Shown: positions 21,534 through 54,123 of the stretch, piece by piece
How positions within the stretch are numbered: the first letter of the stretch is position 1
Layout: each line of letters begins with the position of its first letter
DNA from: Carboxylicivirga fragile
GTDB taxonomy: Bacteria > Bacteroidota > Bacteroidia > Bacteroidales > Marinilabiliaceae
Reading direction: 5' to 3'
Assembly: GCA_025499625.1 (NCBI GenBank)
Contig: JAFMVD010000008.1
Location: 62,001 to 126,000, forward strand
Length of the DNA stretch: 64,000 nucleotides
Program-made: the position numbers and the translations under genes
Notes under the pieces: generated by a model
Told to the model about the DNA's origin: nothing
Databases searched by the model: none
The model's input: the letters and a program-made list of their open reading frames with translations, nothing else

Positions 21534-21600
21534 CAATATTAAGACATGTTCGAATCAAACAAGATGTAAATATCGTTCCTGATAGGTATAAAATTCATTC
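21534..21600 (-). promoter_or_regulatory. PUL promoter with tandem operator, sulfatase operon
   Basis: Sense strand: GAATGAA, 15 nt containing ACC, then GAACGAT (21600-21572, half-sites 22 bp apart), then exactly 30 nt, then -7 box TAATATTG (21541-21534), 43 nt before the start codon. The same layout precedes susC, the right arm and the fusion gene. Confidence 0.7.
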
Positions 21601-21887
21601 TAAAAAACCACACGCTACTTATTACAACTAACATTTACAAGAGCTTAAGACTGACAACAACATTGTTCTATATTTTATGTTAATTGGACTGTCCGCCCAA
21701 ACCCGACTTCATTTTTTGTCATGACGCAAAAAACGTAAGCAAAAAAAGTCTAGGCTGCACCAGCTTCGCTATATGATATTTCGAAGGATACATAATATAC
21801 CAAAAATACACCCAATGCATGTTGCATCAGATGTATCCTTTCCCTCCCGATTCTAAACAATTATATTTTTTTGTTATGCCTATTACC
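21601..21887. other. Intergenic between two sulfatase genes
   Basis: No gene. Contains a near-palindrome, TTTTTTG (21712-21718) / CAAAAAA (21727-21733) around GTCATGAC, followed by AAGCAAAAAAAGTCTAGGCTG. It resembles a dispersed intergenic repeat I associate with Bacteroidota genomes, but only one copy is in this window. I see no terminator with a clear T-run. Confidence 0.35.
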
Positions 21888-23372
21888 TTATTTCACAACA
21901 CCCACTGGCGATGGGGCAATATTTTCTTGATACTCGCTATGCAAGAGCGCGTGTAAACTATCTACAATTTGACTGTACTCATTTAACTCAGCTACATTTC
22001 GTTCTTCCAGTTTATCAACTGAATGATCATAGAGGGCTCGTGCCATTACTTTATCAATATCCTCACCAAGTAATTCGGTGTAGCTGTAACGAATGGTTTT
22101 TATGGTATAAGCTGTTCGGTTATTAATTAACACATGTTCTTTTCCACTCTTCTCTTGATCATTTAATAATGGGACAATACTTCGACCATCTAGCTTATTG
22201 GGTGCAGTATGCAGCCCACATAACTCGACCATTGTTGGATACATGTCAACTAGTTCCACCATAGCCTGAGATTGACCTCTCTGTTTCATGTTAGGTGCTG
22301 AAATAATTAAAGGTACACGTGCTGATGTTGTATGATAGGTCCATTTTGCCCATTGACCATGTTCCTGTAAATTATAGCCATGATCGGATACCAATACTAC
22401 GATGGTATTCTCATCTAAATCCAATTCTTTAAGCTTAGCCATTATTTGGCCTATTAATGCATCAACATAACTTACTGTGGCAAAATATGCATGAATAAGT
22501 GAGGTGGCCTTTTCGTCGGATATCACTTCATCAATGGGTGGTATATCGGTATACTGTCTAATCTCAAAAGAAGGAAGTTGCAAAGCCTTAGGTTCGGATT
22601 GTGCCGGCTGATTATTTATGGGTAGTTGAATCTGTTCTCTTTCATACTTATCCCAGTGTCTGGCTGGCGCATTAAAAGGTAAATGAGGGCTTATAAAACC
22701 AGCCGTTAAGAAAAAGGGTTGATTCGATGACTTGAGCTTTTCCAAATCGCGCATCACCTTTTGTGTCATTAAACCATCAATATAAGCCGAATCAGCAACA
22801 TTGGCTTTTTCATAAGATGGCCCTCGATCAGTATCAGCATATAGTTTTGCATTATCACTATCGAGGTAATCGCGCCATAAGGATTGCCACCAATCCGTTG
22901 GTTTGAGTCCTTCTGGATTTTCATCAAAGGCATATGGTCGCCATACCTCATCCCAATCGTCCATACGATCATCTAAGTGATGGTATATTTTCCCATTGGA
23001 AATGCAGATATAACCATTCTCTTTAAATAGCTGCGGTAATGTAACTGCATTTGGTGCATCCTCCTGAACAAAGGTTTTGTAATCCCTGAAACGATGGCGA
23101 GTAGGACGCAATCCGGTGAGCATGCTTGCACGAGAAGCGCCACATACAGCTACATTACAATAGGCATTGGTAAACTTTACACCTTTGGCGGCCAAGGCAT
23201 CAATATTGGGTGAATGAATATGCGACTGCTCATAGCATCCCAACTCAGGTCTTAAATCATCCATGTATAAGAGCAAAACATTTGGCTTCTCATGCTCCTT
23301 ATTGCAAGATTGCAATAAAGTCATGAAACTTAATGCTAATAGTATGCCTGCTATTCTACTCATATTAAACAT
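21888..23372 (-). CDS. Iduronate-2-sulfatase-like S1 sulfatase, lipoprotein
   Basis: 494 residues; lipobox LQSC (Cys23). Formylglycine motif is C77-G-A-S-R, the allowed Ala variant of CxPSR, followed by ASMLTGLRPTRHRF. Metal ligands in LLYMDDLRPELG and VSDHGYNLQEHG. NGKIYHHLDD and SPHLPFNAPARHWD place it in the iduronate-sulfatase-like group, though more distant from the pair at 19496 and 46727. Two Met codons are close together (residues 1 and 4); either start leaves a good signal peptide. A 74-nt palindromic repeat lies 18 bp upstream, between this gene and the sulfatase at 23500. Confidence 0.88.
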   Translation of the reverse strand: MFNMSRIAGILLALSFMTLLQSCNKEHEKPNVLLLYMDDLRPELGCYEQSHIHSPNIDALAAKGVKFTNAYCNVAVCGASRASMLTGLRPTRHRFRDYKTFVQEDAPNAVTLPQLFKENGYICISNGKIYHHLDDRMDDWDEVWRPYAFDENPEGLKPTDWWQSLWRDYLDSDNAKLYADTDRGPSYEKANVADSAYIDGLMTQKVMRDLEKLKSSNQPFFLTAGFISPHLPFNAPARHWDKYEREQIQLPINNQPAQSEPKALQLPSFEIRQYTDIPPIDEVISDEKATSLIHAYFATVSYVDALIGQIMAKLKELDLDENTIVVLVSDHGYNLQEHGQWAKWTYHTTSARVPLIISAPNMKQRGQSQAMVELVDMYPTMVELCGLHTAPNKLDGRSIVPLLNDQEKSGKEHVLINNRTAYTIKTIRYSYTELLGEDIDKVMARALYDHSVDKLEERNVAELNEYSQIVDSLHALLHSEYQENIAPSPVGVVK

Positions 23373-23390
23373 TAAATCGCGTTAATAATT

Positions 23391-23464
23391 ATACCGATTA
23401 TATAATGAACTTAGTGTCAAGTTCGCTACGCTCCTTATCACTAGTCATTATCATATCGGCATTA
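23391..23464. repeat. 74-nt palindromic element, copy B
   Basis: Begins ATACCGATTA and ends TATCGGCATTA, as copy A. Arms ATAATGA (23402-23408) / TCATTAT (23445-23451) and TTAGTG (23411-23416) / CACTAG (23439-23444) are different in sequence from copies A and C but fold the same way. The 12-nt loop (23422-23433) reads TTCGCT-N3-CTC, nearly the loop of copy A. It lies in the spacer between two sulfatase genes of one operon. Confidence 0.7.
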
Positions 23465-23499
23465 TGCCTGGTTCTAAGTATATTGCAAAAAACATGTTG

Positions 23500-25113
23500 T
23501 CACTTCGTTTTTAACTCTCCAAATCCGCCTGGAATCGTTTTTATATGCTTTTGTAACTCAACTTGCATTTTCCTGGCCAAATCGCGATACTTTGGATCGT
23601 TAAACAAATTATTTTGTTCCTCAGGATCATCAACAAGGTTATATAACTGATCGGCGTCGGAATAATGCTTGTAGCGCTGCGTAGCCGGAAATTCGGCATC
23701 TCCTCCGCCCGGAACTATTTGTACATGTCCAAAACCAGCCTGCGGATCCAGATTATTCGGTGCTTTCCCTCGCCCTGCTAATATTTTATTGTAATCATCT
23801 AAAATAGTCTGACGCTGTTCATCATCAATATCCATCACCCATTGCGGATAACGTACGGCAATGTATTTATAATCACCCATCCTTACGCCTCTGGAATAAC
23901 CAATCTCAAAGTAGTGAGACTCTCTTGCCTTCTGTTCTTTCCCTTCTAAAATAGTTGCAAAGCTGCGACCATCGTAGTCGTATTTTTTTGGATTAAGACC
24001 TGCTTGCTCAATGATAGTTGGCATAAAATCCACATTCGAAACCAGGGCTTCGCAATGATTACCAACTTCAAAACCACCCTTTTGCCAAATTATACTTGGA
24101 TTAAGCACTGATCCTTGATAAATGGTTCCTTTGGCATATTGGCCGTGGTCGTTGAAGAAATAGATAATGGTATTATCAAATTCGCCTATATCTTTCAGCT
24201 TATGAATAAGTGCACCAAGGGCATCGTCCATCCACAGCAAATTAGCTTTAGGATCATTTACCTTGACATCCGCTTCTTTTAATCGAGTTGGGATGGTTGA
24301 TTTATCAGGCAAACAAGATGGTGCTTTATCCAGAATACCAATTGGAGTAATTTTTCGATCTGCATTCCAGGCACGTTCGGCCTTTTGGGGGCCATGAGGT
24401 ATGGTGGTGGCAAAATACAAGAAAAATGGTTGCTCATCCGTATCGTCCAAAAAAGTGAGTGCTGCTTCAGTTGACCAATCCAGGTTATGAACGGCCAAGT
24501 CCATTGGCCCGTTAAAATCAGGGTTTTCATAAAATATGCCATCGGCATAATCAAATCCACATTGATGATAGGCTTCTATAGTAAGCTTGTAATTCAAAAG
24601 CTGCTGATCCATTACCTTCTTATCAGAAGCATCGGCAGATAAAGGAATCTTTTTATATTTTTTCACCTCAAACACATGATTTTTACCAACAGCTCCCGTA
24701 TTGTAACCTGAGGCTTTTAGTACATTAATAAGGTTTTGCTCACCAGGTAAAATGTGCGTATTCCACTCCACAACACGCTGCTTGTTGTTCTTTCTGCTTT
24801 GCCTTAAAAACCCAGGGTTCTCGGCTCTACTGGCATATTTACCCGTCAGCACATTAAAGCGACTAGGAGTGCAAACCGTAGCGCTCACATGTTGTTGATG
24901 CATGATGGTACCTTCTTCTGCTAAAAAGTCAATATTGGGAGTCAGGTTCTTTCCTTTACCTTCTTCCAAACAGTTAAACATATTGCGAGTCATATCATCC
25001 GCTATGAAGAAGATGATATTTGGTTTTTTATCTTTAGTTTTCTTTCCATTGGCCATCATCCCCTGTGTGGTCAACAATAAGAGCAATGAAAAGATGGATA
25101 TTAAATGCTTCAT
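23500..25113 (-). CDS. S1 family sulfatase, secreted
   Basis: 537 residues with a cleavable signal peptide (LLLLTTQGMMANG). Formylglycine motif C81-T-P-S-R followed by FNVLTGKYASRA. Metal-binding Asp-Asp in FFIADDMTRN, GAVGKNHVFEV where most S1 members have GKWH, and FFNDHGQYAKGT near the second metal site. HVSATVCTPSR and the NKQRVVEWNTHILPGEQNL block set it apart from the other sulfatases in this window. It starts 7 bp after the GH9 gene stop, so the two are cotranscribed. Substrate position unknown. Confidence 0.88.
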   Translation of the reverse strand: MKHLISIFSLLLLLTTQGMMANGKKTKDKKPNIIFFIADDMTRNMFNCLEEGKGKNLTPNIDFLAEEGTIMHQQHVSATVCTPSRFNVLTGKYASRAENPGFLRQSRKNNKQRVVEWNTHILPGEQNLINVLKASGYNTGAVGKNHVFEVKKYKKIPLSADASDKKVMDQQLLNYKLTIEAYHQCGFDYADGIFYENPDFNGPMDLAVHNLDWSTEAALTFLDDTDEQPFFLYFATTIPHGPQKAERAWNADRKITPIGILDKAPSCLPDKSTIPTRLKEADVKVNDPKANLLWMDDALGALIHKLKDIGEFDNTIIYFFNDHGQYAKGTIYQGSVLNPSIIWQKGGFEVGNHCEALVSNVDFMPTIIEQAGLNPKKYDYDGRSFATILEGKEQKARESHYFEIGYSRGVRMGDYKYIAVRYPQWVMDIDDEQRQTILDDYNKILAGRGKAPNNLDPQAGFGHVQIVPGGGDAEFPATQRYKHYSDADQLYNLVDDPEEQNNLFNDPKYRDLARKMQVELQKHIKTIPGGFGELKTK

Positions 25114-25120
25114 AAAAGGT

Positions 25121-26812
25121 TTATTGCTTATCGTTGTAAATACTATCTAAACCAAGGAATAGATAAATGGCTGCTGCATTCCAATTAATGGCAATTTCGT
25201 TGGTAGAGTAACTACACTCCTCATCTAAATACGACATGGCAGGAAACTCTGATGGATACTTTTTCTCGCCACAATCTTTTCGTGCTTGTTTAGTTGGTCC
25301 ACCAGCAAGTAATCCGGGCACTGGTGCATCTATTCCATCTGATTCGGAACGACGCTCATGTATATGCATCGGACTTTTAGTTCCAAAACCGGTAATAAAA
25401 CAATAGCCCAATGGATTAGCGCCCAAGATATAGGCTGCACAGGCATCCGCTGCTTTCAGATAAATGGCTTTCTCAGTCAAATGATAAGCTTGCAACAACA
25501 ATATTCCTTGATTAGCAACTTCGCTATTGCTTCCCCATGGAAATTTTGTGATGGAAATACCATATGCCGAGTTTTCATATTCGTTTACTAATTTATCAGC
25601 TTGTGCTAATAATTTTTTGCTTGCCGTTTTGTTATCTGCCTTTGATTTCTTACTTGAAAGGATTGAATACAGGCCTAAACTATTCACTCTTCCCCATTGT
25701 GGCACCCCAAAATGCGTGCTCTTATAATCCATCTTATCCAAGAACTTTTCATTGGAACTAAGCAGATATAACTCGCTAGCGGCCCAAAACCACTCATCGG
25801 CAATTTTAGTATCTTGATATTGTCCGGTTTTAATGTCTTCAGCCTGCTTATATAAAACATCAGGATTAGCCATTGCCCATTCCCAGGCATATAAAGCAGC
25901 TTTTTCACACTCTTCTGCCAAACCAGGATAATCCTTTTGATGGGCTTTCAACACACGGACTGCTTTAGCCATTGTGGCAGCAAAATCGAGTGTTGCTGCA
26001 GTAGTTTTCATCACAACATACCGATCCGATAAATCTTTATGTGGCATTTTTATTCCACAAAACTTCTTTGATGTCAGCTTATGGTAAACCCCTCCATCAT
26101 TGGGATCTTGCATGCTTAGCATCCATTTCAGGTTAATAAGTGTTTCATCCAATAAATCAGGCGTAGAGTTTCCACTTTCCGGGATGTTCAAATGCATCTT
26201 CTTTGCTGTTTTTGGATACATTTGCACAGCATGCAACATGGTATAAGTGGTAATACTTGAATTAACGATGTATTTATTGTAATCGCCTGCATCGTACCAA
26301 CCGCCTGGTGAAGAAATAGTAGATCCTTCAGAGCGTTCCTTTGTGGCCGCTGTTGGATGAATTATTACTTTATCATCAGGATGCCCAGCCGGACGTGCAT
26401 ATTCTCCTGCAAACTCCTCCAATATCTCAACAGAAACTCTGGCATGATAAAACGATTTGCTGAGCGCCTTATTCAAATCTTTATAAACGATATTAGTAAT
26501 AAGGATGGCTTCATGCTGCTTACTTCCCTCAATAAGTAATTCAAAACTACCTTCATCTTTCAGATGCGAAAAATCAGCAATACAAACCTTAGTGCCAGAG
26601 TGTGGCCATTCTTTAGCTTGGCTTGTAATGCCTTCATAAACTGCTTTACCATTTTCATTAAGCACTTTGAATGATTTAGATCCAAAGTCTTCTGAAAAAA
26701 ACACGCGTTTTTGACCTTCCGGATGAAAACCTATCTGACTCTTATTCTGAGCAAAAACAATAGAAGTACCGAGTACTAAAATCGCTGCAAACCATTTTAT
26801 TCTTAATACCAT
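25121..26812 (-). CDS. GH9 endo-beta-1,4-glucanase-like enzyme
   Basis: 563 residues with signal peptide (ending TSIVFAQ). Residues ~25-105 form the N-terminal Ig-like (CelD_N) domain. The (alpha/alpha)6 barrel has catalytic Asp174 and Asp177 in GGWYDAGDYNKY, the YILGANPLGYCFITGFG loop with HIHERRS after it, and catalytic Glu539 in YSTNEIAINWN. GH9 enzymes cut beta-1,4-glucans (cellulose, mixed-linkage glucan, xyloglucan, glucomannan) and some act as exo-glucosidases. In a xylan-rich locus it may attack a mixed glycan. It lies 13 bp after the GH3 gene and 7 bp before a sulfatase gene. Confidence 0.9.
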   Translation of the reverse strand: MVLRIKWFAAILVLGTSIVFAQNKSQIGFHPEGQKRVFFSEDFGSKSFKVLNENGKAVYEGITSQAKEWPHSGTKVCIADFSHLKDEGSFELLIEGSKQHEAILITNIVYKDLNKALSKSFYHARVSVEILEEFAGEYARPAGHPDDKVIIHPTAATKERSEGSTISSPGGWYDAGDYNKYIVNSSITTYTMLHAVQMYPKTAKKMHLNIPESGNSTPDLLDETLINLKWMLSMQDPNDGGVYHKLTSKKFCGIKMPHKDLSDRYVVMKTTAATLDFAATMAKAVRVLKAHQKDYPGLAEECEKAALYAWEWAMANPDVLYKQAEDIKTGQYQDTKIADEWFWAASELYLLSSNEKFLDKMDYKSTHFGVPQWGRVNSLGLYSILSSKKSKADNKTASKKLLAQADKLVNEYENSAYGISITKFPWGSNSEVANQGILLLQAYHLTEKAIYLKAADACAAYILGANPLGYCFITGFGTKSPMHIHERRSESDGIDAPVPGLLAGGPTKQARKDCGEKKYPSEFPAMSYLDEECSYSTNEIAINWNAAAIYLFLGLDSIYNDKQ

Positions 26813-26825
26813 GTCTCTTTAATTT

Positions 26826-29150
26826 TTATTCGACGTAAGTGAATGGGATTGACAACAAGTCCTTATCGCGGGAAGAACCACCAACCATAGCTTTAAAAAC
26901 ACCTTCTTCAATAGTTGGCTTTAATTGTTTATCCAGAAACACTAACATATCGGGTGTAATTTCAAAACTTACTTGCTTGGTTTCTCCAGCTTTCAACGAT
27001 ATGCGTCGATAAGCCTTCAATTCCTTTACAGGTCGCGTTACAGAGCAAATTTTATCATTCAAATAAAGCTGAACAACCTCATCCCCATCGTATTTACCAA
27101 TATTTGTCACTTCTACCTTAAGCAGTAACTTTTCCTTTTTACCAATGCTTTGTTTCGACAATTGCAGGTTCTGATAATTGAAATCGGAATAGCCTAAACC
27201 ATAACCAAACTCGTACAATGGTGTTGATTTTGAGGTCACATATTTGTGGAAATAATGGGTTGGCTTATGGTTATAAACCGATAACAGGTGTCCTGAACTT
27301 CGTGGAATACTAATGGTTAATTTGGCCGAAGGATTCACTTCTCCAAATAGTATTTGAGCCAATGCCTTACCTCCCATGCTTCCTGGTTCCCAAGCTTCAA
27401 TAATAACCGGAACATTGTCTGCAATCCATTCGGTGGCCAATGGTCGGCCATTCACCAATACTACAATTGTTGGCGTACCCGAATAGTATACAGCTTCCAC
27501 TAGATCTTGCTGTAAGCCTGCTAAGCCTATGTCTGATCTGCCTGAATTTTCACCACACGTTTTTTGGTCCCACTCCCAACGGAAAGAGTTTTCACCAACT
27601 ACAACAATGGCTAAATCTGCTTTTGACGCCCGCTTATTGGCTTGTTTGATATGAGCTTTAGTTACGTGGCGAGGGTTATGTCCCACATCCAAATAATCAT
27701 AGTTACAAGAAGTACCAATCTCATGTAATCCATCAAGAATAGTTGATACCTTATCACTTGCTTGTTGAGCAGACCAATCGCCCAATACACTTTCGTTATT
27801 GGCATTAGGACCTGTTATAAACACATTTAATTTTTTCGAAATATTTAAGGGCAGTAGCTCATCCTCATTCTTTAATAATACGATTGACTTTTGAGCCGCT
27901 TCCAAGGCTGTGGCCTGATGTTCAGCATTAAATAAGATTGTTTCTGTTACCGTTTCATCAACCATTGGATTTTCAAATAAGCCCAAACGAAACTTTGCCT
28001 CTAACAAGCGACGAACACTTTCATCAATACGTTCCTCTGTTAATCGGCCTTCATTCACCAAGTCTATTACGGGCTGAAGAAATTCTGGCCCATGCATATG
28101 CATATCCATTCCAGCATCAATGGTTTGATAACAAGCTTCTGTTTGATCTTCTGCCACAAAGTGACGAGTAGCCAAACGCTCTATATCCATCCAATCACTG
28201 ACGATGAATCCTTCAAAACCAAGTTCCTCGCGCATAACATCAGTCATCATCCACTTATCGGCATGACAAGGCACTCCGTTTAATTCGTTATGGGCAGTCA
28301 TTAATGAAAATACACCAGCATCAACAGCAGCTTTATAGGGTGGTAAATAAATCTCGCGAATGGTGCGTTCTGACAAATCTGTTGGTGCACCATTTAAACC
28401 ATTTACTGATTCGCTTCCGGCAATCAGATGCTTTGCACAGGCAATCACATTAAAGTAGGCATCGCTATCTGTATTTTGCAGACCTTCAATCATGGCTACA
28501 CCCATATCTGAAACCAAAAGCGGGTCTTCGCCAAAAGTCTCACCAACTCTCCCCCAACGTGCATCACGTGCCACATCAAGATTGGGTGTAAATGTCCATG
28601 CTGCTCCTGTGGCTCTCATTTCTTTGGCTGTCTCAACTGATAGTTTCTTAACCAGTGTTGTATCCCAAGTACTGGCCAATCCTATTGGTGTAGGGTATAC
28701 TGTAGCTCCTTGTACCAAAGCCGTACCATGAATGGCATCAATGCCAATCAAGAGCGGTATTTTTAAGCGACTCTTTTGAGCCAGGCTTTGTAAGTAATTA
28801 GCCTCCTTAACATCTGTTACATGCAGAAATGAACCAATCAAACCTTGTTCAACCATCTTCTCCACATCGGTGGAATGCAGATCCGGGTAGAAGCCCTGTG
28901 CATCACTCTTCTCCATATCTTCTTTGGAGAGGTTTTTCTCAGCCTGCTTCATGTGCTCCAAACCTACAAACTGGCACATCTGTGCCACCTTTTCTTCAAG
29001 CGTCATCTGTTGAAGTAAGTTTTCAACTCGCTCCTCAACAGCCATCTCCGAATTAAGGTACAAGGCCTTGTCTTCACTATTCTGAAACGAACAGCTTGTA
29101 ACTAACAAAGCAAGTAGCCCAACTTTTATATAATCAGATATCTTACTCAT
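26826..29150 (-). CDS. GH3 lipoprotein, BglX-like beta-glycosidase
   Basis: 774 residues; lipobox VTSC near residue 20. The GH3 barrel shows LEEKVAQMCQF, IGIDAIHGTALVQGATVYPTPI, and nucleophile Asp319 in FIVSDWMDIERL. The second domain has LLPLNISKKLNVFITGPNAN and the VVVGENSF region; an FN3-like domain ends it (EVTNIGKYDGDEVVQLYL). IDAIHG and the VYPTPIGLAS block place it with BglX-type beta-glucosidases rather than the NWWNEALHG xylosidase type encoded in the xylose module, so it probably takes beta-glucosyl or mixed beta-linked ends. Located after the hairpin that follows susD, 13 bp before GH9. Confidence 0.9.
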   Translation of the reverse strand: MSKISDYIKVGLLALLVTSCSFQNSEDKALYLNSEMAVEERVENLLQQMTLEEKVAQMCQFVGLEHMKQAEKNLSKEDMEKSDAQGFYPDLHSTDVEKMVEQGLIGSFLHVTDVKEANYLQSLAQKSRLKIPLLIGIDAIHGTALVQGATVYPTPIGLASTWDTTLVKKLSVETAKEMRATGAAWTFTPNLDVARDARWGRVGETFGEDPLLVSDMGVAMIEGLQNTDSDAYFNVIACAKHLIAGSESVNGLNGAPTDLSERTIREIYLPPYKAAVDAGVFSLMTAHNELNGVPCHADKWMMTDVMREELGFEGFIVSDWMDIERLATRHFVAEDQTEACYQTIDAGMDMHMHGPEFLQPVIDLVNEGRLTEERIDESVRRLLEAKFRLGLFENPMVDETVTETILFNAEHQATALEAAQKSIVLLKNEDELLPLNISKKLNVFITGPNANNESVLGDWSAQQASDKVSTILDGLHEIGTSCNYDYLDVGHNPRHVTKAHIKQANKRASKADLAIVVVGENSFRWEWDQKTCGENSGRSDIGLAGLQQDLVEAVYYSGTPTIVVLVNGRPLATEWIADNVPVIIEAWEPGSMGGKALAQILFGEVNPSAKLTISIPRSSGHLLSVYNHKPTHYFHKYVTSKSTPLYEFGYGLGYSDFNYQNLQLSKQSIGKKEKLLLKVEVTNIGKYDGDEVVQLYLNDKICSVTRPVKELKAYRRISLKAGETKQVSFEITPDMLVFLDKQLKPTIEEGVFKAMVGGSSRDKDLLSIPFTYVE

Positions 29151-29198
29151 ATTTGACTAATTAACATTACTCCAATAAGCGGAGCATTAAAGAATTAA

Positions 29199-29226
29199 TA
29201 AGCACACTCATAACTGAGTGTGCTTA
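29199..29226 (-). terminator. Intra-operon hairpin after susD
   Basis: TAAGCACACTCA (29199-29210) and TGAGTGTGCTTA (29215-29226) are perfect 12-bp arms with a TAAC loop; the minus strand continues TTAATTCTTTAA. Such hairpins after susCD commonly reduce transcription of the downstream enzymes or stabilise the susCD message. Confidence 0.6.
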
Positions 29227-29235
29227 AATTATTAT

Positions 29236-30798: not shown

Positions 30799-30810
30799 TC
30801 GGATTAAGTA

Positions 30811-43964: not shown

Positions 43965-44058
43965 CTTTAATTTTTTATTGATGTTCCATGCATCTTATCT
44001 ATTTTGGCGCTTCGCCAAACCAATCCCAATATGTAATAACACAATTTATCTCAATTCG

Positions 44059-44424
44059 TTACCACTTAATATTTTCATCGATAAAGGCAATCAAGAGTTT
44101 AGCCATCACTTTGTGCTCATCCACTTTGGGATGTCCTGGGGTATTTTTATAGGGAAACATCAGCGTATACATCTTTTCATCATTCAGTTCCTTAACAGCC
44201 GTTTGCACATATCCCGGCCAAGACGATCCTTCTTTGGTGGCATCCATACTTCCCAGTGCGCAGATAATATTTGCTTTGGGATATTTTGCTCTGATATCAG
44301 AGACAAAACTTTTATAAGCATCAATATGGCTATAATCAAACTCAAGCGGATTGTTTTGTGCAATAAGGTTTGTGCTTAATACGCACAAAAGAAGTAATAA
44401 GTAGAGATGTAATATTTTAATCAT
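44059..44424 (-). CDS. CE2-like esterase remnant, internally deleted
   Basis: 121 residues. A normal signal peptide (MIKILHLYLLLLLCVLSTNLIAQ) is joined directly to the last ~95 residues of an SGNH/CE2-like esterase: FVSDIRAKYPKANIICALGSMD and a GHPKVDEHKVMAKLLIAFI block carrying the catalytic His region. The N-terminal jelly-roll and the GDS segment with the catalytic Ser, expected for CE2, are absent. The junction is in frame, so a clean internal deletion is likely. The product cannot have the usual Ser-His chemistry. Treat as a probable pseudogene, or a small protein with a new role. Confidence 0.65.
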   Translation of the reverse strand: MIKILHLYLLLLLCVLSTNLIAQNNPLEFDYSHIDAYKSFVSDIRAKYPKANIICALGSMDATKEGSSWPGYVQTAVKELNDEKMYTLMFPYKNTPGHPKVDEHKVMAKLLIAFIDENIKW

Positions 44425-44470
44425 AGCGTTTCTTTTAAGTTACTCGCTTACTCTTCACAAACAACTTTTC

Positions 44471-45604: not shown

Positions 45605-45629
45605 AATTACCGATTTTATTATTTCTACA

Positions 45630-46727: not shown

Positions 46728-48259
46728 CAGGGTTGCGAGTTTAGTATTTGTAATAATTTATCCTGTAAAAGACTGCGCACCTCGGCATACTCTTCGTTTT
46801 CTGCAAATGATTCTTTTTCCAGAGGATCCTTTTCATAATCGTAAAGCTCTACACCTACAATATCAGGATTGGAATAAACGTCTGTTTTTCTGAATTCGCC
46901 CTTCAGCCACAAAGTCAATCGGTACTGCTTGGTTCTTAAGGAATAGCCCATTACCTTATTTCCACGAGGATATTGACTTATGGCATAATCTTTTATCTCT
47001 ACCTTTGAATTCTTAAGCACAGGCACTAAACTAAGACCGTCCAACTCGTCATCAACAGGCAAGTTACTCAACTCACATAAGGTTGGATAGATATCAACAA
47101 ATTCAGCCATTGTATTGGCTTGTTTACCTTGTTGCATTCCAGGTGCAGAAATCATCATAGGAACCCTTGTGGCTTGCTCAAAATTGGAATGTTTGCACCA
47201 TAAACCGTGGTCGCCCAAGTGCCATCCATGATCGCCCCACAACACAATAATCGTATTATCACTTATACCCAATTCATCAAGCTTATCCATTACTAAACCA
47301 ATCTGTGCATCCACATAGCTCACGCAAGCTCTATACCCATGTATCAACTCTTTTTGCTGATCTGTGGGAACAGGCCCTTGCTGCGGGATATCGGAGTAGT
47401 TGCGCAATTCGCCCCAGGTATGATAAGCATAATCAGGTGCACCTATAGCTTCCTCCTGATATGGGTTTAACTGTATGGCATCGCGCTCATACATGTCCCA
47501 ATATTTTTTTGGTGCAGCAAATGGCAGGTGAGGTTTATTAAACCCTAATGCTAAAAAGAAAGGCTTATCATTTGAGCTTAATTCTTCCAGTAGTTCAATA
47601 CCGGCAAGTGCAACAGCTCCATCTTTGTATGCTCCATCTGGTACATCCATACATTCGACAGATGGCGCTAAACCCATTTTTTTCAAGTATTGGTTGGTTT
47701 CCTTCCAACCTAGCTTCTGTTTTTTACTCTGACGATAAGCTTTATGAATTTCTTTTGCCTGATACTTGCCATTGGCCGGGTATTTATAACCTTCAGGGTA
47801 TACCAATTCTTTTGACTCCTTATAAGGAATGCTCCACGACTTAGGATCATTATTTTTTGCCCCATGCATCAGTTTACCCAAACCAACCGTTTCGTAACCT
47901 TGCTGCATAAAGTATTGAGGTAAGGTTACTACATCGGGGTTAACATCGCGCATGTTGGTTTTTAAATCCCATACTTTGGTTTGATCAGGGCGTAATCCGC
48001 TAAACAAACTTACCCTTGATACAGCACATACCGCTTGCTGACAATAGGCATTATTAAACTGCACACTTCTAGCCGCCAAAGCATCCATATTAGGCGAGAT
48101 TATTTCCGTATCGCCATATGTGCCTAACATTGGCTTTAGATCATCCACAGCTATAAATAATATATTTGGCTTCTGTGGTTTGGACTGTGCACAGGCTACT
48201 AACTGCACCCCCAGCACCATAAATAGTAGAAAGTATGCCTTCAAACTTCGATTCATCAT
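46727..48259 (-). CDS. Iduronate-2-sulfatase-like S1 sulfatase with unusual CAVSR motif
   Basis: 510 residues; lipobox LVAC (Cys23). The fold follows the paralogue at 19496: FIAVDDLKPMLGTYGD, VWDLKTNMRDVNPD, LGLGKLMHG, NKPHLPFAAPKKYWD, LWGDHGWHLGDHGLW. The formylglycine motif is C78-A-V-S-R: Val replaces the Pro/Ala normally at the third position, while Cys, Ser and Arg are kept. All other active-site blocks look intact. The maturation of this Cys may be slower or use a tolerant enzyme. Cotranscribed with and coupled to the SGNH esterase downstream. Confidence 0.88.
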   Translation of the reverse strand: MMNRSLKAYFLLFMVLGVQLVACAQSKPQKPNILFIAVDDLKPMLGTYGDTEIISPNMDALAARSVQFNNAYCQQAVCAVSRVSLFSGLRPDQTKVWDLKTNMRDVNPDVVTLPQYFMQQGYETVGLGKLMHGAKNNDPKSWSIPYKESKELVYPEGYKYPANGKYQAKEIHKAYRQSKKQKLGWKETNQYLKKMGLAPSVECMDVPDGAYKDGAVALAGIELLEELSSNDKPFFLALGFNKPHLPFAAPKKYWDMYERDAIQLNPYQEEAIGAPDYAYHTWGELRNYSDIPQQGPVPTDQQKELIHGYRACVSYVDAQIGLVMDKLDELGISDNTIIVLWGDHGWHLGDHGLWCKHSNFEQATRVPMMISAPGMQQGKQANTMAEFVDIYPTLCELSNLPVDDELDGLSLVPVLKNSKVEIKDYAISQYPRGNKVMGYSLRTKQYRLTLWLKGEFRKTDVYSNPDIVGVELYDYEKDPLEKESFAENEEYAEVRSLLQDKLLQILNSQP

Positions 48260-48278
48260 TTTCGCAGATTTAATATTA

Positions 48279-49292
48279 TTAATTATCTCTTATCACTTTC
48301 AGCTTTTGCTGTTCTACTATAAAATCAAACGCCAGCTCTTCCAAGCGTTTATTGTCAAGCATAGCACCCCAGGCGCCATGCCCCTTTCCTTCTAGTGGGT
48401 AATAAACAAATGGCGCACCGGTGCTTTCATACATCTGTTTTAATTCCTTTGCATTAATGAAGGGAACAGTAGGATCTTCTGTACCATGAGCAATAAACAG
48501 GGCAGGATCATTACGGTCAAATCGTTGATGACTAAATATTTTTTCCATTGCATCCAATGCAGCTTTTGATCCCCAAAGGTCGACTATGATTTTAATCTGA
48601 TAGGATTGATCAATGTTTGTAGTCGTCAAGCTTGGGTCTTGCTCAAATGTCAACTCGTCTCTGAAATCTTCCGGGTTAGAAATACCCATTGTTATGGCGG
48701 TAATAGCGCCTGCAGAACCTCCACCAACAGTAATATAATCTGTATTTATATTGTACACATCAGCATTTGCCACCACCCAACGCAGCGCTGCCTTGGCATC
48801 TCGAATAGCAGGATAGATTGCTAAGAACGGTCCTACCTTCGCTGCTTTAGGAAGCTTTTCTGCAAAATCAAGCCACTCAATAGGTACTGTTCCTTTATGG
48901 CGCTTTAAGCGATAATCGGCTGAAATGAACACCCATCCTCTTGAGGTATAATAATTGGCCCATTCAATAATCCTCCCTTGTTGTTTTGTACCGCCAGCAA
49001 AACCACCTCCATGAATAAACAAAAATACAGGTCTGTTTTCTAACTCATTATCCGGCGTATACACATCAAGCTTTAAGGGCATAACTGTGGCATCCGAACT
49101 ATTAATGCTTGAATGGCTCAAGCCTTTGGCATACACAATATCATGCTCCACATTTACTTCAAATGTCTGCTCAGCCTGTACAACAGGTGTTTCATCCTTA
49201 CAAGACTTTGATTCACTTTTATTATTTGAAAACGAAAGTGTGCACTTGCCAATTGCTAATATTAAGATAACTGCCCTTATTAATCTATGCAT
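48279..49292 (-). CDS. Alpha/beta-hydrolase esterase (acetyl/feruloyl-esterase-like)
   Basis: 337 residues with an N-terminal signal segment (LIRAVILILAIGKCTLSFS). Catalytic features: oxyanion HGGGF (FLFIHGGGFAGG), nucleophile Ser in VGGGSAGAIT, Asp in AHGTEDPTVPF, His in GKGHGAWG, the arrangement of BD-FAE and hormone-sensitive-lipase-like esterases. Probably removes acetyl or aromatic acyl groups from oligosaccharides in the periplasm. It lies between a T9SS jelly-roll gene and a sulfatase gene, 4 and 19 bp away, so it is in the same operon. Natural substrate cannot be read from sequence. Confidence 0.8.
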   Translation of the reverse strand: MHRLIRAVILILAIGKCTLSFSNNKSESKSCKDETPVVQAEQTFEVNVEHDIVYAKGLSHSSINSSDATVMPLKLDVYTPDNELENRPVFLFIHGGGFAGGTKQQGRIIEWANYYTSRGWVFISADYRLKRHKGTVPIEWLDFAEKLPKAAKVGPFLAIYPAIRDAKAALRWVVANADVYNINTDYITVGGGSAGAITAITMGISNPEDFRDELTFEQDPSLTTTNIDQSYQIKIIVDLWGSKAALDAMEKIFSHQRFDRNDPALFIAHGTEDPTVPFINAKELKQMYESTGAPFVYYPLEGKGHGAWGAMLDNKRLEELAFDFIVEQQKLKVIRDN

Positions 49293-49296
49293 ACGT

Positions 49297-50598
49297 TTAT
49301 CTTTTAATCAATTTTATTACATGCCCATTTTGTTCGAAAAGGTAGACTCCTGAAGAAAAAGCTGAAATATCAAATACAGACTCCTCTCCGGCTTTCATAA
49401 CCTGACCATTCATGTTATAAACCGTCCAAGGCCCAGCTTTACTAACTCTAAAGATACCTTTAGAAGGATTTGGGTAAACCAATACTTCACTTCCCTTGGT
49501 GGCATTAATGGACAGAGGCTCTTCATTCAGCTTAATGTTGAGAGAATTGAATTTTAATGCGCCAAAACCATCCGTCACCTCTAGACCAACTTGTATATTT
49601 GGCACATACTGATTTTTATTCAGGTAGCCTCTTGATATAAACGAATCATAAATGCCTTTCATATCAATACTTCCCTGAAGCAATTGCTCGTTATCTTTAA
49701 TAATCACCCTGCGCCATTCATAACCATTCTCCTCCTTATACAAGCGTGCAAATGGTTTTTCATTAATAATGGTATCTGTTAACACAGTTGGGTATGGTGG
49801 AATCCACGTTCCTTTCTGGTCAAATACAAAGAAAAAATCACCGTCGTTACTACTGAAATCATCCAGGTAAGCTTCGTCGGTAACAAAATGGTTCAGCGCA
49901 ATTTTATAGCCTTCTGTACCATAGAGTTGTTTAAAATCAAAATCCAGCTCCATTGATTCAATGGAAGATAATTGTATAGGGAAACCCGACAAGTCCTCTC
50001 TTATTCCTTTTCGATTACCCCACAATACACTGATATAACACCAAACTGAGGCACCATCAAAATCTCCGGGTGACGATGGAGTATCCCAAACAAAAATGGT
50101 TTGATCAGGCAAATCGGCGTGGCAAAGTGTAGCCATTCTGAAATCCACACCCTCCTGGGCTGTGCCACGTCCCCATAAATTATTGTATCCTAAATAAGGG
50201 TTGCCAGGCACTATGTATGTTTCTTTATGCGACTCTAATATCACATACTCATTGCTATTGGATAGTGTGTAATCATAGCCATCGACAACCACAATGCTTG
50301 TTTGCTCATTATTACACTGTATCAATAAATCATGCCTTGTTACTTCACCGATTACATCCTCAATAACAGTGTTGATGCTAATAATGCCCGTTGTCGGCTC
50401 AATAACAAAATGATTATCGTTGTTGCCTCCTACTATTTCATAATCAAAGCTTCCTTCTCCTGGCAAATCAACATCAGCAATCTGATCGCCCATTTTTTCG
50501 AATTCACTCCTGTAAAATAGAGAAGACTGAGCAAACAGATGACAACTATTAGAAAATAGTACCACTGTCAGAAAAACATGTAATAATACCTTTGTCAT
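49297..50598 (-). CDS. Secreted cadherin-like plus jelly-roll protein with T9SS sorting domain
   Basis: I choose the ATG at 50598 (433 residues), which overlaps the sulfatase stop as ATGA, rather than a Met five codons upstream. Signal peptide (to HLFAQ), a cadherin-like segment (~35-105: FDYEIVGGNNDNHFVIEPTTG), a beta-jelly-roll with GYNNLWGRGTAQ, SVWCYISVLWGNRKG and FPIQLSSIESM, and a C-terminal T9SS domain (VLVYPNPSKGIFRV ... VIKLIKR). YNNLWG and the FPIQLS block faintly recall GH12, as in the protein at 39791, but catalytic residues are not confirmed. Probable extracellular hydrolase or glycan-binding protein. Confidence 0.6.
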   Translation of the reverse strand: MTKVLLHVFLTVVLFSNSCHLFAQSSLFYRSEFEKMGDQIADVDLPGEGSFDYEIVGGNNDNHFVIEPTTGIISINTVIEDVIGEVTRHDLLIQCNNEQTSIVVVDGYDYTLSNSNEYVILESHKETYIVPGNPYLGYNNLWGRGTAQEGVDFRMATLCHADLPDQTIFVWDTPSSPGDFDGASVWCYISVLWGNRKGIREDLSGFPIQLSSIESMELDFDFKQLYGTEGYKIALNHFVTDEAYLDDFSSNDGDFFFVFDQKGTWIPPYPTVLTDTIINEKPFARLYKEENGYEWRRVIIKDNEQLLQGSIDMKGIYDSFISRGYLNKNQYVPNIQVGLEVTDGFGALKFNSLNIKLNEEPLSINATKGSEVLVYPNPSKGIFRVSKAGPWTVYNMNGQVMKAGEESVFDISAFSSGVYLFEQNGHVIKLIKR

Positions 50599-52073
50599 TT
50601 CTTTTTCTTCCACTTGCTCTTACTCGGATCGATCTTCTTGGCATTAATGGATTTCCGCCACTCTTTTACTAAAGCATGTAACTCTTTGGTTTTCTCAGGG
50701 AGTTCCTGACTCAAATCTTTATTTTCACCAATATCATTACTTAAATCAAACAGCTCTACACGTCCTTCGTCGTACCAATCAATTAGCTTATACTTACCCA
50801 AACGCACTGCTGAGCTATTCTCATCTCCTGTACTTCCCGGCCGAGCCAGAGGCGAATGCCAAAACATAGGTGTTTCACGTTCAAACTTTTTACCTTTAAT
50901 GGCTGCACTTACATCTATCCCATCTAAATGATCCTTTGGACGCTGATCCAAACCAGCCATTTCTAATACAGTTGGGTATATATCGGTTCCTGTTATTAAG
51001 GCATCACTTACCTGACCAGCTTGGCTTTGTGCCGGCCATTTGACAATAAAGGCCTCACGAATACCTCCTTCGTACAACCAGCCTTTTCCATAACGTAAGG
51101 GATAATTAGAAGTAGCCAGTTTACGTGTATTACCACGTGTTGAAAGGCCTCCATTATCGGCAGTGAAAATGATGATTGTATTATCTGCAATATCCAATTC
51201 AATCAGTTTAGCTTGTAGCTTAGCCATACTCTGGTCGATGCTTTCTATCATGGCTGCATAAACCGGATAATCCTGAAGAAGTTTAGTATCACCTGTGATT
51301 GTTTCTTCATACTCCGGCAAATCATATTCCATCGATTTTAGTTTGGCCTCATACTTCTTAACCAATTCTGGTTTGGCCTCAAAGGGTGTATGCACCCCGT
51401 AATGCGATAAGAAAACAAAGAAAGGATCCTCACTTTGATGGCTAACATGATCTGATATAAAATCTAATGTTTCATCGGTAATGCGATCAGTAATGTATTC
51501 ACCTTCCTGGCCATCTTCCAAACCATGAATTTCGTTTTTCTTATAACCTTTTTTACCCGATGGAGTAGCTTCTCCTTTGCGATATGGATACCAATAAGTG
51601 GGCGGTGCACCAGCTGCCCCTCCAGCCACATTTACATCAAAGCCCTGATTTTCGGGCATATTTCCTTCCTTATCTCTGAACAACAGATGCCATTTACCTG
51701 TGAAAAATGTTGAGTATCCACCTTCTTTTAAAGCTTCTGCAATAGTAACATCTTCAGGCAGCAAACCTCCACCTCCCGGAACAGAATCACGGGCAGGATA
51801 TTTTCCTGTCATTACACCGTAGCGAGCAGGCACACAGCGAGGATGAGCAGTATACGCCTGAGTAAACCTAACTCCTTCTGCAGCTAATTGATCAATGGCA
51901 GGTGTCTCATAAAACTTAGATCCCTGACAAGCTAAATCCATCCATCCCAAATCGTCCACATAGAAGATAACGATATTTGGTTGTTGCTTTGGTTTATCCT
52001 CAGCAAATAATAGTACTTGATTGAGCAATAATATACCGATGATGGCTACTACGAACTTTATCTTCCCCTGCAT
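50595..52073 (-). CDS. S1 family sulfatase
   Basis: 492 residues; signal peptide (to LLFAE). Formylglycine motif C80-V-P-A-R, where Ala takes the usual Ser place; Cys, Pro and Arg are kept. Metal ligands in FYVDDLGW and FTADNGGLS; GKWHLLF and SHYGVHTPF are present. It is the close paralogue of the left-arm sulfatase at 16440 (same LGW...L, KFYETPAIDQLA, THPRCVP-like, YPLR-GKGWLYEGGIRE and HSPLARP blocks). The C-terminus is Lys-rich. First enzyme gene of the right arm after the T9SS binding protein, and translationally coupled (ATGA) to the next gene. Confidence 0.9.
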   Translation of the reverse strand: MQGKIKFVVAIIGILLLNQVLLFAEDKPKQQPNIVIFYVDDLGWMDLACQGSKFYETPAIDQLAAEGVRFTQAYTAHPRCVPARYGVMTGKYPARDSVPGGGGLLPEDVTIAEALKEGGYSTFFTGKWHLLFRDKEGNMPENQGFDVNVAGGAAGAPPTYWYPYRKGEATPSGKKGYKKNEIHGLEDGQEGEYITDRITDETLDFISDHVSHQSEDPFFVFLSHYGVHTPFEAKPELVKKYEAKLKSMEYDLPEYEETITGDTKLLQDYPVYAAMIESIDQSMAKLQAKLIELDIADNTIIIFTADNGGLSTRGNTRKLATSNYPLRYGKGWLYEGGIREAFIVKWPAQSQAGQVSDALITGTDIYPTVLEMAGLDQRPKDHLDGIDVSAAIKGKKFERETPMFWHSPLARPGSTGDENSSAVRLGKYKLIDWYDEGRVELFDLSNDIGENKDLSQELPEKTKELHALVKEWRKSINAKKIDPSKSKWKKKK

Positions 52074-52117
52074 CCTAAATATTTTTAATTTCAGAATATA
52101 CTCTATTTTTAAATAAT

Positions 52118-52155
52118 AAAATACCTCTGCAATTTTTACATCACAAAGGTATTTT
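52118..52155 (-). terminator. Hairpin between the first and second gene of the right arm
   Basis: AAAATACCT (52118-52126) and AGGTATTTT (52147-52155) are perfect 9-bp arms with a 20-nt loop; the minus strand continues ATTATTTAAA. It lies between the T9SS binding-protein gene and the sulfatase gene. It may partly terminate transcription so that the first gene is made in excess. Confidence 0.5.
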
Positions 52156-52177
52156 CACCTCAAACCAAAACTTCTAA

Positions 52178-53893
52178 CTATTTCTTTGTAAACTTCTTAA
52201 TTACTTTTTCACCATTTACCTCAAGAGCAGCAATGTAAATGCCATTTGGTAAATGTGCTACATCTACTCCGTCAACTAATTCCATTACGTCTAACACCTT
52301 TTGGCCAGATAAGCTATAAATCTCAACTTTACTTACAAGATCAGAAGAATCGATGTATAACATTGATTTAACAGGATTAGGATATATCGAAAGCCCACTT
52401 AAATTATCATTAATAGCTGTCGCATTATCAACAGTAATTATTACAGTATAAAACAATTTTGCCCCATTTTCTGCTTCTACCCTTACACTAACTTTGCCAC
52501 TGCCTGAAGAAACATCGGCGTTTCCATCAGCAATCTCAACGGCAACTTCTTCACCATTAACATCAGTTACTTGTCTTATTGTAACAGTTGCTTTCTCATT
52601 GTCTGTAGCAGTTGCTGAAAAATTAACCACAGTAGTACCATTTGGAACTGTTAATGTATAATCGTGAACACCAGAACTAAATCCAGGAACCAAAGTTCCT
52701 AAAGAACTAGTTAAACTACTCAAAGTAGCATCATCATTTCCTTTTAAAAGTTTTATATAGTCTATCTCAACTGTGCCAGCATTTACCGGATCAGCCAACT
52801 TAGCCGGCCCCATAATAAGGAAGGATGCGATATTGCCATTCCAATATTCATGTCCACCTAATAAAACTCTGTAAGTTTTAAATTCAGTATCATTAGCAGT
52901 GGTATTAGGAATTATATTACTTCTTTGATTGCCATCAGGATCAACAAAGACAAACTTCAATGGAGCCTCACTATCAACATCATAGATAGTGTTATTTTTC
53001 AATCTAACTTCAAAGATATCAAACTCATCACCCATAACGCCAAGTTTATCATGTTGAAATCTCGGCCAGTTGCCCGTCATTGTCATAACTGCCGAGCCAT
53101 TAACAACCTCTATATCACAATTGGTGTAAGCTTCCCAACCTTCCAGATCACCATTAGTATTAAAGTTCCATTCATAAGTAAATCCTGGTATCTTTGTGAA
53201 CGTAGCACTTATGCTTTTATCACCATCCATGGTTAAAGTAGTCGGGTTTGTCGTACCGCTTAAGTCTCCTCCCCAGCTTGTAAACTCATATCCTAAATAG
53301 GGCACTGCCGTAATTGTTTGTACAGAATTCTGTGGCAAATCATCACTGGCAGGTGTGATTGTACCCGCTCCTGTTATAGTTTTACTTAAATTATAGGTAG
53401 CTCTGGTGCCAAAAAATAAATCATCAGCAACAAAGGTTTGAGATACACCAGCTCCTAAATCACTATTTGACTGCAATATAAATTTATCAATATTCAAAGC
53501 TGCATCTAAGGAAACTGTTGTAGTAAAAAACTCCCAACTGTCACTAGCTTCAAATGCAGTTCCATTAACGGTTTTAGTAGACCCATCTTTAAATTTCACC
53601 TTAAACTTGGCTAATTCTCCAATTGTACCTTTTGCCCAAAACGACAATTCGTAATCTCCTATAGCAACCTGCGTGGTCCCATCTGTAATATACTGAGCAC
53701 CTTTATTTATAGCAGCAACTACCTCATAAGCGTTCGTTGACCCATTATTACCTGGCGATACAATCTGACGACTATCAGCTCCACTATTAGTCCAACCATC
53801 AGCCCCTCCTTCAAAATCAAAATTAGGTACGAAGTTTTGTCCATTCATATTTAGTGACAACACAACGATAAGTAGAGTAAAAAGTTTTTTCAT
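52178..53893 (-). CDS. T9SS-secreted modular glycan-binding-like protein
   Basis: 571 residues: signal peptide (to LNMNGQ), CBM4/9-like sandwich (~20-165, PNFDFEGGADGWTNSGADSRQ), a bacterial/InlB-like repeat (~170-235, LGYEFTSWGGDLSGTTNP), a second sandwich (~240-395, YEWNFNTNGDLEGWEAYTNCD), a cadherin-like beta sandwich (~398-490) and a T9SS type A domain (LSIYPNPVKSML...KVIKKFTKK). No catalytic domain seen, so it is probably a surface or secreted binding protein that holds the polysaccharide. First gene of the right arm, downstream of the tandem operator and -7 box (53923-53989). Confidence 0.75.
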   Translation of the reverse strand: MKKLFTLLIVVLSLNMNGQNFVPNFDFEGGADGWTNSGADSRQIVSPGNNGSTNAYEVVAAINKGAQYITDGTTQVAIGDYELSFWAKGTIGELAKFKVKFKDGSTKTVNGTAFEASDSWEFFTTTVSLDAALNIDKFILQSNSDLGAGVSQTFVADDLFFGTRATYNLSKTITGAGTITPASDDLPQNSVQTITAVPYLGYEFTSWGGDLSGTTNPTTLTMDGDKSISATFTKIPGFTYEWNFNTNGDLEGWEAYTNCDIEVVNGSAVMTMTGNWPRFQHDKLGVMGDEFDIFEVRLKNNTIYDVDSEAPLKFVFVDPDGNQRSNIIPNTTANDTEFKTYRVLLGGHEYWNGNIASFLIMGPAKLADPVNAGTVEIDYIKLLKGNDDATLSSLTSSLGTLVPGFSSGVHDYTLTVPNGTTVVNFSATATDNEKATVTIRQVTDVNGEEVAVEIADGNADVSSGSGKVSVRVEAENGAKLFYTVIITVDNATAINDNLSGLSIYPNPVKSMLYIDSSDLVSKVEIYSLSGQKVLDVMELVDGVDVAHLPNGIYIAALEVNGEKVIKKFTKK

Positions 53894-53922
53894 AATACTT
53901 AAGATTTAAAAATTAGTTTAAG

Positions 53923-53989
53923 CCAATATATGAGCTTATATCAAAAGGCTTGGTGGTATAATCGTTCTGCTAGGGTAGAAGAATCATTC
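53923..53989 (-). promoter_or_regulatory. Right-arm promoter with tandem operator
   Basis: Sense strand: GAATGAT, 15 nt containing ACC, GAACGAT (53989-53961, 22 bp apart), exactly 30 nt, then -7 box TATATTGG (53930-53923), 29 nt before the start codon. It would drive up to eleven genes down to 39791. Confidence 0.7.
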
Positions 53990-54056
53990 AAGCACCCTAA
54001 CACATTAATATTCAGCACAAACAAACAAAGTCATTGTAAATCGTAAAAACTAATAC

Positions 54057-54123
54057 GAACGATTACTAAACCATAGTAGAACGATAGTAGCGACACCTAC
54101 TACCTTGCGAAACAATACTTTTA
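54057..54123 (+). promoter_or_regulatory. Fusion-gene promoter with tandem operator
   Basis: GAACGAT (54057-54063), 15 nt containing ACC, GAACGAT (54079-54085), exactly 30 nt, then TACTTTTA (54116-54123) as -7 box, 27 nt before the start codon. This is the only copy in which both half-sites are identical. Divergent from the right-arm promoter. Confidence 0.7.

Follow-up and report, generated by a model that had tools for sequence, protein, structure and literature searches.

Tandem half-sites in fixed register with the -7 box as probable operators of a hybrid two-component regulator in a sulfatase-rich locus of Carboxylicivirga fragile

Introduction

Hybrid two-component systems (HTCSs) are a major class of regulators of polysaccharide utilization loci (PULs) in Bacteroidota, and the operators and start sites of most of them are unknown. 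In Bacteroides thetaiotaomicron, HTCS operators have been predicted as direct repeats of two conserved sites, on average 21 bp apart, upstream of PUL operons (Ravcheev 2013, PMC3878776); the HTCS_Man operator consists of two 16-bp sites with a 5-bp spacer, and 20 of the 36 HTCSs were left without a motif (PMC3878776; statements on cited papers refer throughout to the portions of their text available to us). Here we analyse a window of 64,000 nt of C. fragile DNA (contig JAFMVD010000008.1, positions 62,001 to 126,000; G000:C129:62001-126000), taken from a 5.6-Mb host genome of 140 contigs, that holds a PUL arranged around an HTCS gene at 34484. Like the B. thetaiotaomicron HTCS regulons (PMC3878776), this locus carries a direct repeat of two sites before PUL operons, but here the half-site is GAACGAT-N6-ACC, the spacing is 22 bp and the host belongs to the Marinilabiliaceae. 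Beyond what was found in that study, the repeat stands at a fixed distance from the -7 box of its target promoters and, before the gene of the regulator itself, at another and greater one. Comparison among relatives makes it very probable that these tandem sites are the operators of the HTCS encoded at 34484.

Binding of the arabinan HTCS BT0366 to two PUL regions was followed by electrophoretic mobility shift assay (Schwalm 2016, PMC5061871), and HTCSs have been examined by chromatin immunoprecipitation sequencing (Lynch 2012, PMC3404733). BT0366 binds its target promoter and a region beside its own gene (PMC5061871, PMC3404733); in the present locus candidate sites lie at both places, as judged from comparison alone. 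BT0366 is said to promote transcription of its PUL operon as well as of its own gene (PMC5061871). In the response-regulator parts of HTCSs the receiver holds back DNA binding, which depends on phosphorylation, and the inhibitory interface involves conserved S/C-H residues in the receiver and D-K residues in the DNA-binding domain (DBD; PMC11253607).

A further comparison is Escherichia coli AraC, which is soluble and binds arabinose, whereas an HTCS is a membrane histidine kinase acting on promoters of the Bacteroidota -7 type (TAnnTTTG). The araI1 and araI2 half-sites stand in head-to-tail order, about two helical turns in extent, and adjoin the -35 region. They are the adjacent promoter-proximal half-sites, and binding to araI2 recruits polymerase (PMC4760080).

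Four operons share a probable 38-bp tandem operator

The proposed binder, the four candidate operators and the -7 boxes that follow them are:

34484 to 38419, plus strand: HTCS, the proposed binder, with Reg_prop, Y_Y_Y, HisKA, HATPase, receiver and AraC-type helix-turn-helix (HTH) domains; DBD at residues 1233-1310
34059 to 34096, minus strand: operator of the susC operon, a 38-bp tandem GAATGGT-N6-ACC-N6-GAACGAT-N6-CTA
34030 to 34037, minus strand: -7 box TAACATTG of the susC operon, separated by 30 nt from the inner GAACGAT
21563 to 21600, minus strand: operator of the downstream sulfatase operon (operon 2), 38 bp
21534 to 21541, minus strand: -7 box TAATATTG of the sulfatase operon
53952 to 53989, minus strand: operator of the right arm (CBM, sulfatase, esterase and GH10 genes), 38 bp
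53923 to 53930, minus strand: -7 box TATATTGG of the right arm
54057 to 54094, plus strand: operator of a large sulfatase gene (the fusion gene) and the next sulfatase, 38 bp
54116 to 54123, plus strand: -7 box TACTTTTA of the large sulfatase gene

An earlier note on this DNA had described one tandem layout at four PUL promoters, placed 30 nt before the -7 box, and had named the HTCS as its binder. Every copy and both internal spacings proved exact, as did the gap of 30 nt from the inner GAACGAT to each of the four boxes. The inner GAACGAT and the ACC, described there as invariant, are so across the four window copies but not in relatives, where the inner half also reads GAACAAT, GAACGAA or GAACGCT and ACC is replaced by ATC, AGC, AAC or TCC.

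The 22-bp tandem is present as described, but the site is longer than the earlier account allowed. An information profile built on 21 exact sites from orthologous loci has strong columns at GAAYSAT, ACC and GAACGAT and moderate ones within the half-site (positions 7, 10, 11 and 33); A-x-C, mostly A[ACT]C, recurs 7-9 nt after the second GAACGAT. With the A-x-C element also present in the second half, the operator is therefore a 38-bp tandem of two 16-bp half-sites, with the full consensus GAAYSAT-N6-ACC-N6-GAACGAT-N6-A(A/C/T)C. The terminal A-x-C is its weakest part, since the four window copies read CTA, ATC, ACC and GAC. After the operator the profile holds little information for 21 nt, until T-A-x-Y-W-T-T-G at +59. 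The two conserved blocks of a half-site have their centres 11 bp, one helical turn, from each other, which would fit the two HTH motifs of a single AraC-type domain. HTCS operators are direct repeats of about 21 bp upstream of PUL operons, and here 16-bp half-sites 22 bp apart precede four PUL operons and the HTCS gene itself.

On the chain encoded at 34484, a periplasmic sensor propeller, Y_Y_Y, HisKA, HATPase_c, receiver and AraC-type HTH follow one another in order (seven Pfam models above cut-off), the architecture that defines an HTCS. Its nearest solved chain by PDB sequence match is the HTCS protein 12aw, and the matches also include MarA and SoxS. Residues C1136, H1137, D1207 and K1291, candidate equivalents of the inhibitory-interface positions of BT4124, are invariant in 15 aligned HTCSs.

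The motif occurs with its regulator

The whole-genome scan that the earlier note had proposed, run here with the pattern GAAYGRW-N6-ACC-N6-GAACGAT, returned four exact matches in the 5.6-Mb genome, precisely the four PUL sites. One further match has one mismatch and lies inside an open reading frame (ORF), and 11 have two; the reversed pattern, as control, gives five matches at up to two mismatches. We scored these 12 imperfect matches with a matrix of the 38-bp operator (-7 box excluded, threshold score 17): the only high value belongs to a site beside the HTCS gene (31.6), and the next, 16.7, is inside an ORF.

Across genomes the motif tracks the HTCS. In a set of 60 genomes the window-derived pattern is exact in six, each with an orthologous HTCS, and the reversed control in none, that is, 6 of 12 genomes with the ortholog versus 0 of 48 others (p = 1.8e-5). 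Twenty-four genomes of this set lie outside the family and were checked for the HTCS with a fragment search, whose best match there was 2.6e-121; the same fragment gave 1e-210 or better in seven orthologs. Among 71 family genomes a wider pattern is present in 11, all of them among the 14 with an HTCS ortholog (cut-off E <= 1e-200), and in 0 of the 57 others (Fisher 1.4e-10). Because the motif in the family is limited to genomes with the orthologous HTCS, the operators are best assigned to that protein. Named relatives in the HTCS alignment belong to Carboxylicivirga, Labilibacter, Marinilabilia and further Marinilabiliaceae; the closest ortholog, 74% identical, is from an uncultured Carboxylicivirga.

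Over 393 genomes of the order, a slightly wider pattern matches in six, our own genome and 5 of the 387 outside the family (seven matches), and the control matches once. None of the seven outside matches has a -7 box at +59; four lie in ORFs and three are near-identical copies in one genome. These three (L295, L296 and L297 in G099, from another family) stand outside ORFs of at least 150 codons and are perhaps an unrelated interspersed repeat.

Operators are in register with a -7-only promoter

When run on orthologous loci, the matrix found 38 sites with a score of at least 17, seven beside the HTCS gene and 31 others, of which 30 are distinct. At all 30 distinct target sites a -7 box lies at exactly +59, which is 30 nt after the inner GAACGAT, and any other phase within 15 nt is occupied in at most 3 of 30. 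Below the threshold (score 8-17), the box is again at +59 at the susC site of genome G026 and the large-sulfatase site of G017.

The absence of a clear -33 box, remarked on at the four window promoters by the earlier note, extends to these 30 target sites: TTG at an 18-nt spacer is found in five, and TTTG in none at 15-23 nt and in three at 14 nt. The sigma-ABfr consensus of Bacteroidota joins a TAnnTTTG -7 box to TTTG at -33 (PMC7366714). Target boxes mostly read TAnnATTG or TAnnTTnG, and the targets depart from this consensus, as is expected of activator-dependent promoters.

Flavobacterial promoters have a -7 box that spans -12 to -5 (PMC9723704). On that numbering the target operator, whose downstream copy stops 21 nt before the box, spans about -71 to -34 and so overlaps the place of the -33 element. 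A site overlapping -33/-35 at a fixed distance from the core promoter is the arrangement of class II activators, and here 30 of 30 sites keep one phase, with one weaker site 1 nt off. Such a register would explain promoters that lack a -33 element and would let the operator of an HTCS be found from few genomes.

In the portions of the literature that we searched we found no statement of a fixed distance from HTCS operator to -7 box (Fig. S3 of PMC5061871 may show such distances), nor any mention of the 22-bp variant or of a second distance at a regulator's own gene. All three would thus appear to be new detail on the known direct-repeat operators of HTCSs.

The probable regulon follows the regulator in relatives

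Comparison with orthologous loci, another check suggested at the outset, was made by tblastn and site scan, and the operators recur there. The susC promoter carries a site above threshold in 11 of 12 orthologous loci with a readable susC promoter and a degenerate one in G026; in G022 a matching susC-type site faces the contig end, and the gene behind it is out of view. The right-arm operator has a counterpart at the same place in G004, G012, G009, G011, G013, G022, G017 and G005, and the large-sulfatase operator in G004, G012, G009, G011, G005 and G013, with a weak one in G017 (9.4).

In G005 and G076 the SusC encoded after the operator shares only 38% identity with that of the window, in G007 56%, and the HTCS there is 50-51% identical; because the operator stays where SusC is only 38% identical, it appears to follow the HTCS and not the transporter. 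In L114/L071 (G005) and L112/L099 (G076), susC and susD have been swapped for distant homologues (38% and 32-33% identity) within an otherwise conserved PUL that keeps the operator, an apparent exchange of transporter genes under one regulator. The divergent pair of large sulfatase and CBM genes lies on another contig in G011, G013, G017, G022 and G005, where one or more of its operators persist in phase with the -7 box; these are draft genomes, in which separate contigs leave physical separation unproven. The regulon would comprise four operons here, and in relatives it probably also includes genes on other contigs. In 11 other HTCSs from genomes with above-threshold sites the DBD is 75-94% identical. 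More diverged DBDs go with no above-threshold site (50% in G007p, 58% in G076p) or with a degenerate one (70% in G026).

The operator at 21563 is sporadic: among nine other loci that cover the junction, G076 alone has a site (16.4), and the best scores of the others are below zero. The window gap that holds this operator-promoter is 397 nt long and also contains an interspersed repeat; in relatives the gap at the same sulfatase junction (tblastn ends) is 20-146 nt in seven, with about 4 kb of other DNA in G012 and G032. That repeat, the second in the locus, occupies about 21663-21770 of the window between two sulfatase genes and has eight genome matches including itself. Its insertion may have split the operon, accompanying the operator-promoter at 21534-21600. 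We also considered the 21563 site as a copy of another promoter and rejected this, BLAST having returned only short operator matches in common and the interspersed repeat.

A fifth probable operator, at the HTCS gene, has its own register

The imperfect match that scored 31.6 lies upstream of the HTCS gene:

34244 to 34281, plus strand: fifth operator, GAATCAT-N6-CCC-N6-GAACGAT-N6-ATC, two mismatches to the pattern, score 31.6
34341 to 34348, plus strand: consensus -7 box TATATTTG of the HTCS gene, separated by 68 nt from the inner GAACGAT

Ten of the 12 orthologs examined have an operator on the HTCS side, seven above threshold (the window included) and three weak (G012, G009 and G011), these being the best-scoring sites upstream of the gene although below the threshold; G026 is outside the 12. 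HTCS-side operators have no -7 box at +59. In all 10, a perfect TAnnTTTG box follows the inner half-site at 67-69 nt, and this spacing is kept although the distance to the first in-frame ATG ranges between 85 and 325 nt. The operator here spans about -109 to -72, 38 bp further upstream than at the targets. The grid test described below, turned towards the HTCS gene in 30 and 18 clusters of other HTCSs, showed no peak near 75 nt; the 68-nt arrangement looks particular to this clade, because unrelated HTCSs give no such signal.

A site in this position implies autoregulation by the HTCS, of either sign, as a concrete prediction. Besides BT0366, the published comparison is BT1754, whose expression is low and constitutive (PMC3404733). 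A DNA loop joining the operators on the susC and HTCS sides was considered and is not favoured, because the gap between them varies (111-168 bp in nine orthologs, 561 bp in G022) while each operator keeps the distance to its own -7 box; each appears coupled to a promoter of its own. The 5' leader of the HTCS gene also holds, at 34377-34480, an interspersed repeat of about 104 bp with imperfect 25-nt inverted ends (76%), resembling a miniature inverted-repeat transposable element, which has 10 genome matches including itself, one of them at window 2205-2278.

Unrelated HTCSs show the same layout

The generality of the layout was assessed with a motif-free grid test, in which mean self-identity was computed for repeat offsets of 10-34 and distances of 20-59 between the first base of the second 16-mer and a -7-like box (1000 cells). 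The first set comprised 94 HTCS regions (92 of the genus, two of another genus of the family), two without a usable frame. In 47 a divergent gene of 220 aa or more lay 100-650 nt away, and these regions fell into 30 clusters by ungapped DBD identity; ungapped clustering kept related HTCSs apart, and gapped re-clustering gave 23. With 30 clusters the best cell is offset 21, distance 37 (8.33/16 versus 6.78, standard deviation 0.26, in shuffles), a grid maximum reached in 0 of 200 shuffles at the loose and the stricter box threshold alike. With the 23 gapped clusters (21, 37) is again first, with 0 of 200 shuffles at both thresholds. In 10-bp windows the offset remains 21 and the distance blurs (31-39), the maximum being reached in 1 and 4 of 200 shuffles.

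Of 51 regions from outside the family, 18 were suitable, and the best cells again have offset 21, with distances of 33-37; (21, 37) was reached in 0 of 200 shuffles and, at the strict threshold, ranks 14 of 1000 (6 of 200 shuffles). The test was repeated after dropping four regions that exceeded 60% identity to the first set, which left 13 clusters; at the loose threshold (21, 37) then ranks 5 of 1000 with 0 of 200 shuffles, and the grid maximum was reached in 4 of 200.

The 21-bp offset already known from Ravcheev 2013 (PMC3878776) is thus recovered blindly. The window operators share the distance of 37 with other HTCSs but have an offset of 22, so the earlier reading of a 22-bp repeat as two helical turns, as for AraC-type dimers, was nearly right, 22 bp being particular to this clade. 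The -7 register looks general in the genus and is likely, less surely, to extend beyond it. The recurrence of this layout at unrelated HTCSs, each with half-sites of its own and more weakly outside the family, is a further reason for assigning the window operators to the HTCS. We lean, by a small degree, towards a code shared by HTCS promoters across Bacteroidota, in which regulator-specific half-sites stand head to tail 21 bp apart (22 here) and a promoter with only a -7 box follows 37 nt after the start of the second copy, the regulator taking the place of the -33 element. Individual clades may have a second grammar besides, in which the same operator is moved 38 bp upstream at the promoter of the regulator itself. 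If this held, operator and transcription start could be read from the HTCS gene and its neighbour sequence.

Proposed mechanism and alternatives

That the tandem is the binding site of the HTCS at 34484, the explanation the earlier note preferred, is well supported by comparison: co-occurrence in the family, retention after the SusC swap, sites kept on other contigs and the same layout at unrelated HTCSs. We propose that the periplasmic sensor would bind an oligosaccharide and the receiver would become phosphorylated, whereupon the two AraC-type DBDs of a dimer would bind head to tail. Each monomer would read GAACGAT and A(C)C on the same face of the DNA, their centres separated by one turn (about 11 bp), the copies lying 22 bp apart. 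At the four target promoters the operator would cover the place of the missing -33 element, and the bound activator could substitute for it and hold RNA polymerase on a -7-only promoter, a class II geometry resembling araI1-I2. The operator at the HTCS gene would occupy a class-I-like or modulatory position.

Several observations weigh against this reading. The pattern behind the 71-genome count was widened after the relatives' sites had been seen, and the counts are not independent, because orthologs share ancestry (G009 and G011 are nearly identical). Three of the 14 genomes with the ortholog have no exact motif: G032 has two weaker operator sites, G026 has a degenerate site with TATTATTG still at +59, and G079 (HTCS 33% identical) has no site scoring above 8. 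The matrix score alone is not specific, because four of the seven matches outside the family, taken as chance matches, exceed 17. The missing -33 box is weak evidence, because the phylum has no general -33 motif; across Flavobacterium johnsoniae promoters none could be identified (PMC7366714). One exception to the register was seen, a sub-threshold site in G076 with TAATATTG at +58, 29 nt and not 30 from the inner half-site:

C77:23416-23444 (in L099): operator-like site of G076 before the ortholog of the sulfatase at window 21490, score 16.4

Finally, the HTCS-side site was not found in G005 and G007 among the 12 orthologs, and in the 13 outside-family clusters at the strict threshold (21, 37) ranks only 23 (4 of 200 shuffles), with the grid maximum reached in 100 of 200.

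The HTCS might bind and yet use the fixed 30 nt for repression or an architectural role, and not for activation in place of the -33 element. This is unlikely: no -33 consensus is present at the target promoters, half-sites and -7 box succeed one another as they do with class II activators, and BT0366 activates its own PUL (PMC5061871). The different -7 distance at the fifth site does show that the protein need not sit at -33, and an HTCS has been reported bound at loci that it represses (PMC3404733).

It is very unlikely that the tandem belongs to another AraC-type or response regulator, encoded elsewhere and co-regulating the PUL. Candidates exist, in that several further host genes match the receiver and HTH part of the HTCS, but such a protein would have to accompany the HTCS ortholog over 71 genomes, keep its site when SusC is swapped and act on the HTCS gene itself, which has a site of its own, while the same layout with different half-sites also lies beside unrelated HTCS genes. 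Scarcely credible is a repeat that has no dedicated regulator and was copied along with promoters, whether by duplication of promoter DNA or as a mobile element. There are interspersed repeats in the vicinity, but they are without operator, and copying would not conserve half-sites and -7 box around 21 nt of low information.

Gene content of the locus

By Pfam the locus is a PUL in which the HTCS is surrounded by susC/susD, genes for esterases and for GH3, GH5, GH9 and GH10 enzymes, and nine genes with a sulfatase domain. Breakdown of a sulphated polysaccharide is the presumed task of its operons:

21888 to 33984, minus strand: target operon 1, with susC, susD, GH3, GH9 and two sulfatases; gaps up to 127 nt
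16440 to 21490, minus strand: target operon 2, with three sulfatases
39791 to 53893, minus strand: target operon 3 (right arm), with a CBM-type secreted protein, sulfatases, esterases, GH10 and a SASA esterase
54151 to 59814, plus strand: target operon 4, with a large sulfatase bearing a C-terminal sorting domain and a second sulfatase
38424 to 39398, plus strand: GH5-like enzyme, starting 4 nt after the HTCS and presumably a member of its operon

Target operon 3 is possibly two units, because the 506 nt that separate its GH10 and SASA genes hold only a small ORF. An Rfam scan of the window gave no family at gathering scores. A 681-aa protein of the PUL (41021-43066) has no Pfam match at E 0.001. 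The product described in the earlier note as a fusion is a 1326-aa sulfatase with a C-terminal sorting domain (Pfam); for no Pfam family at E 0.001 does the best-matching stretch fall within residues 1-530 (window 54151-55740), and in several relatives about 500 residues of this N-terminal part are 68-70% identical (tblastn).

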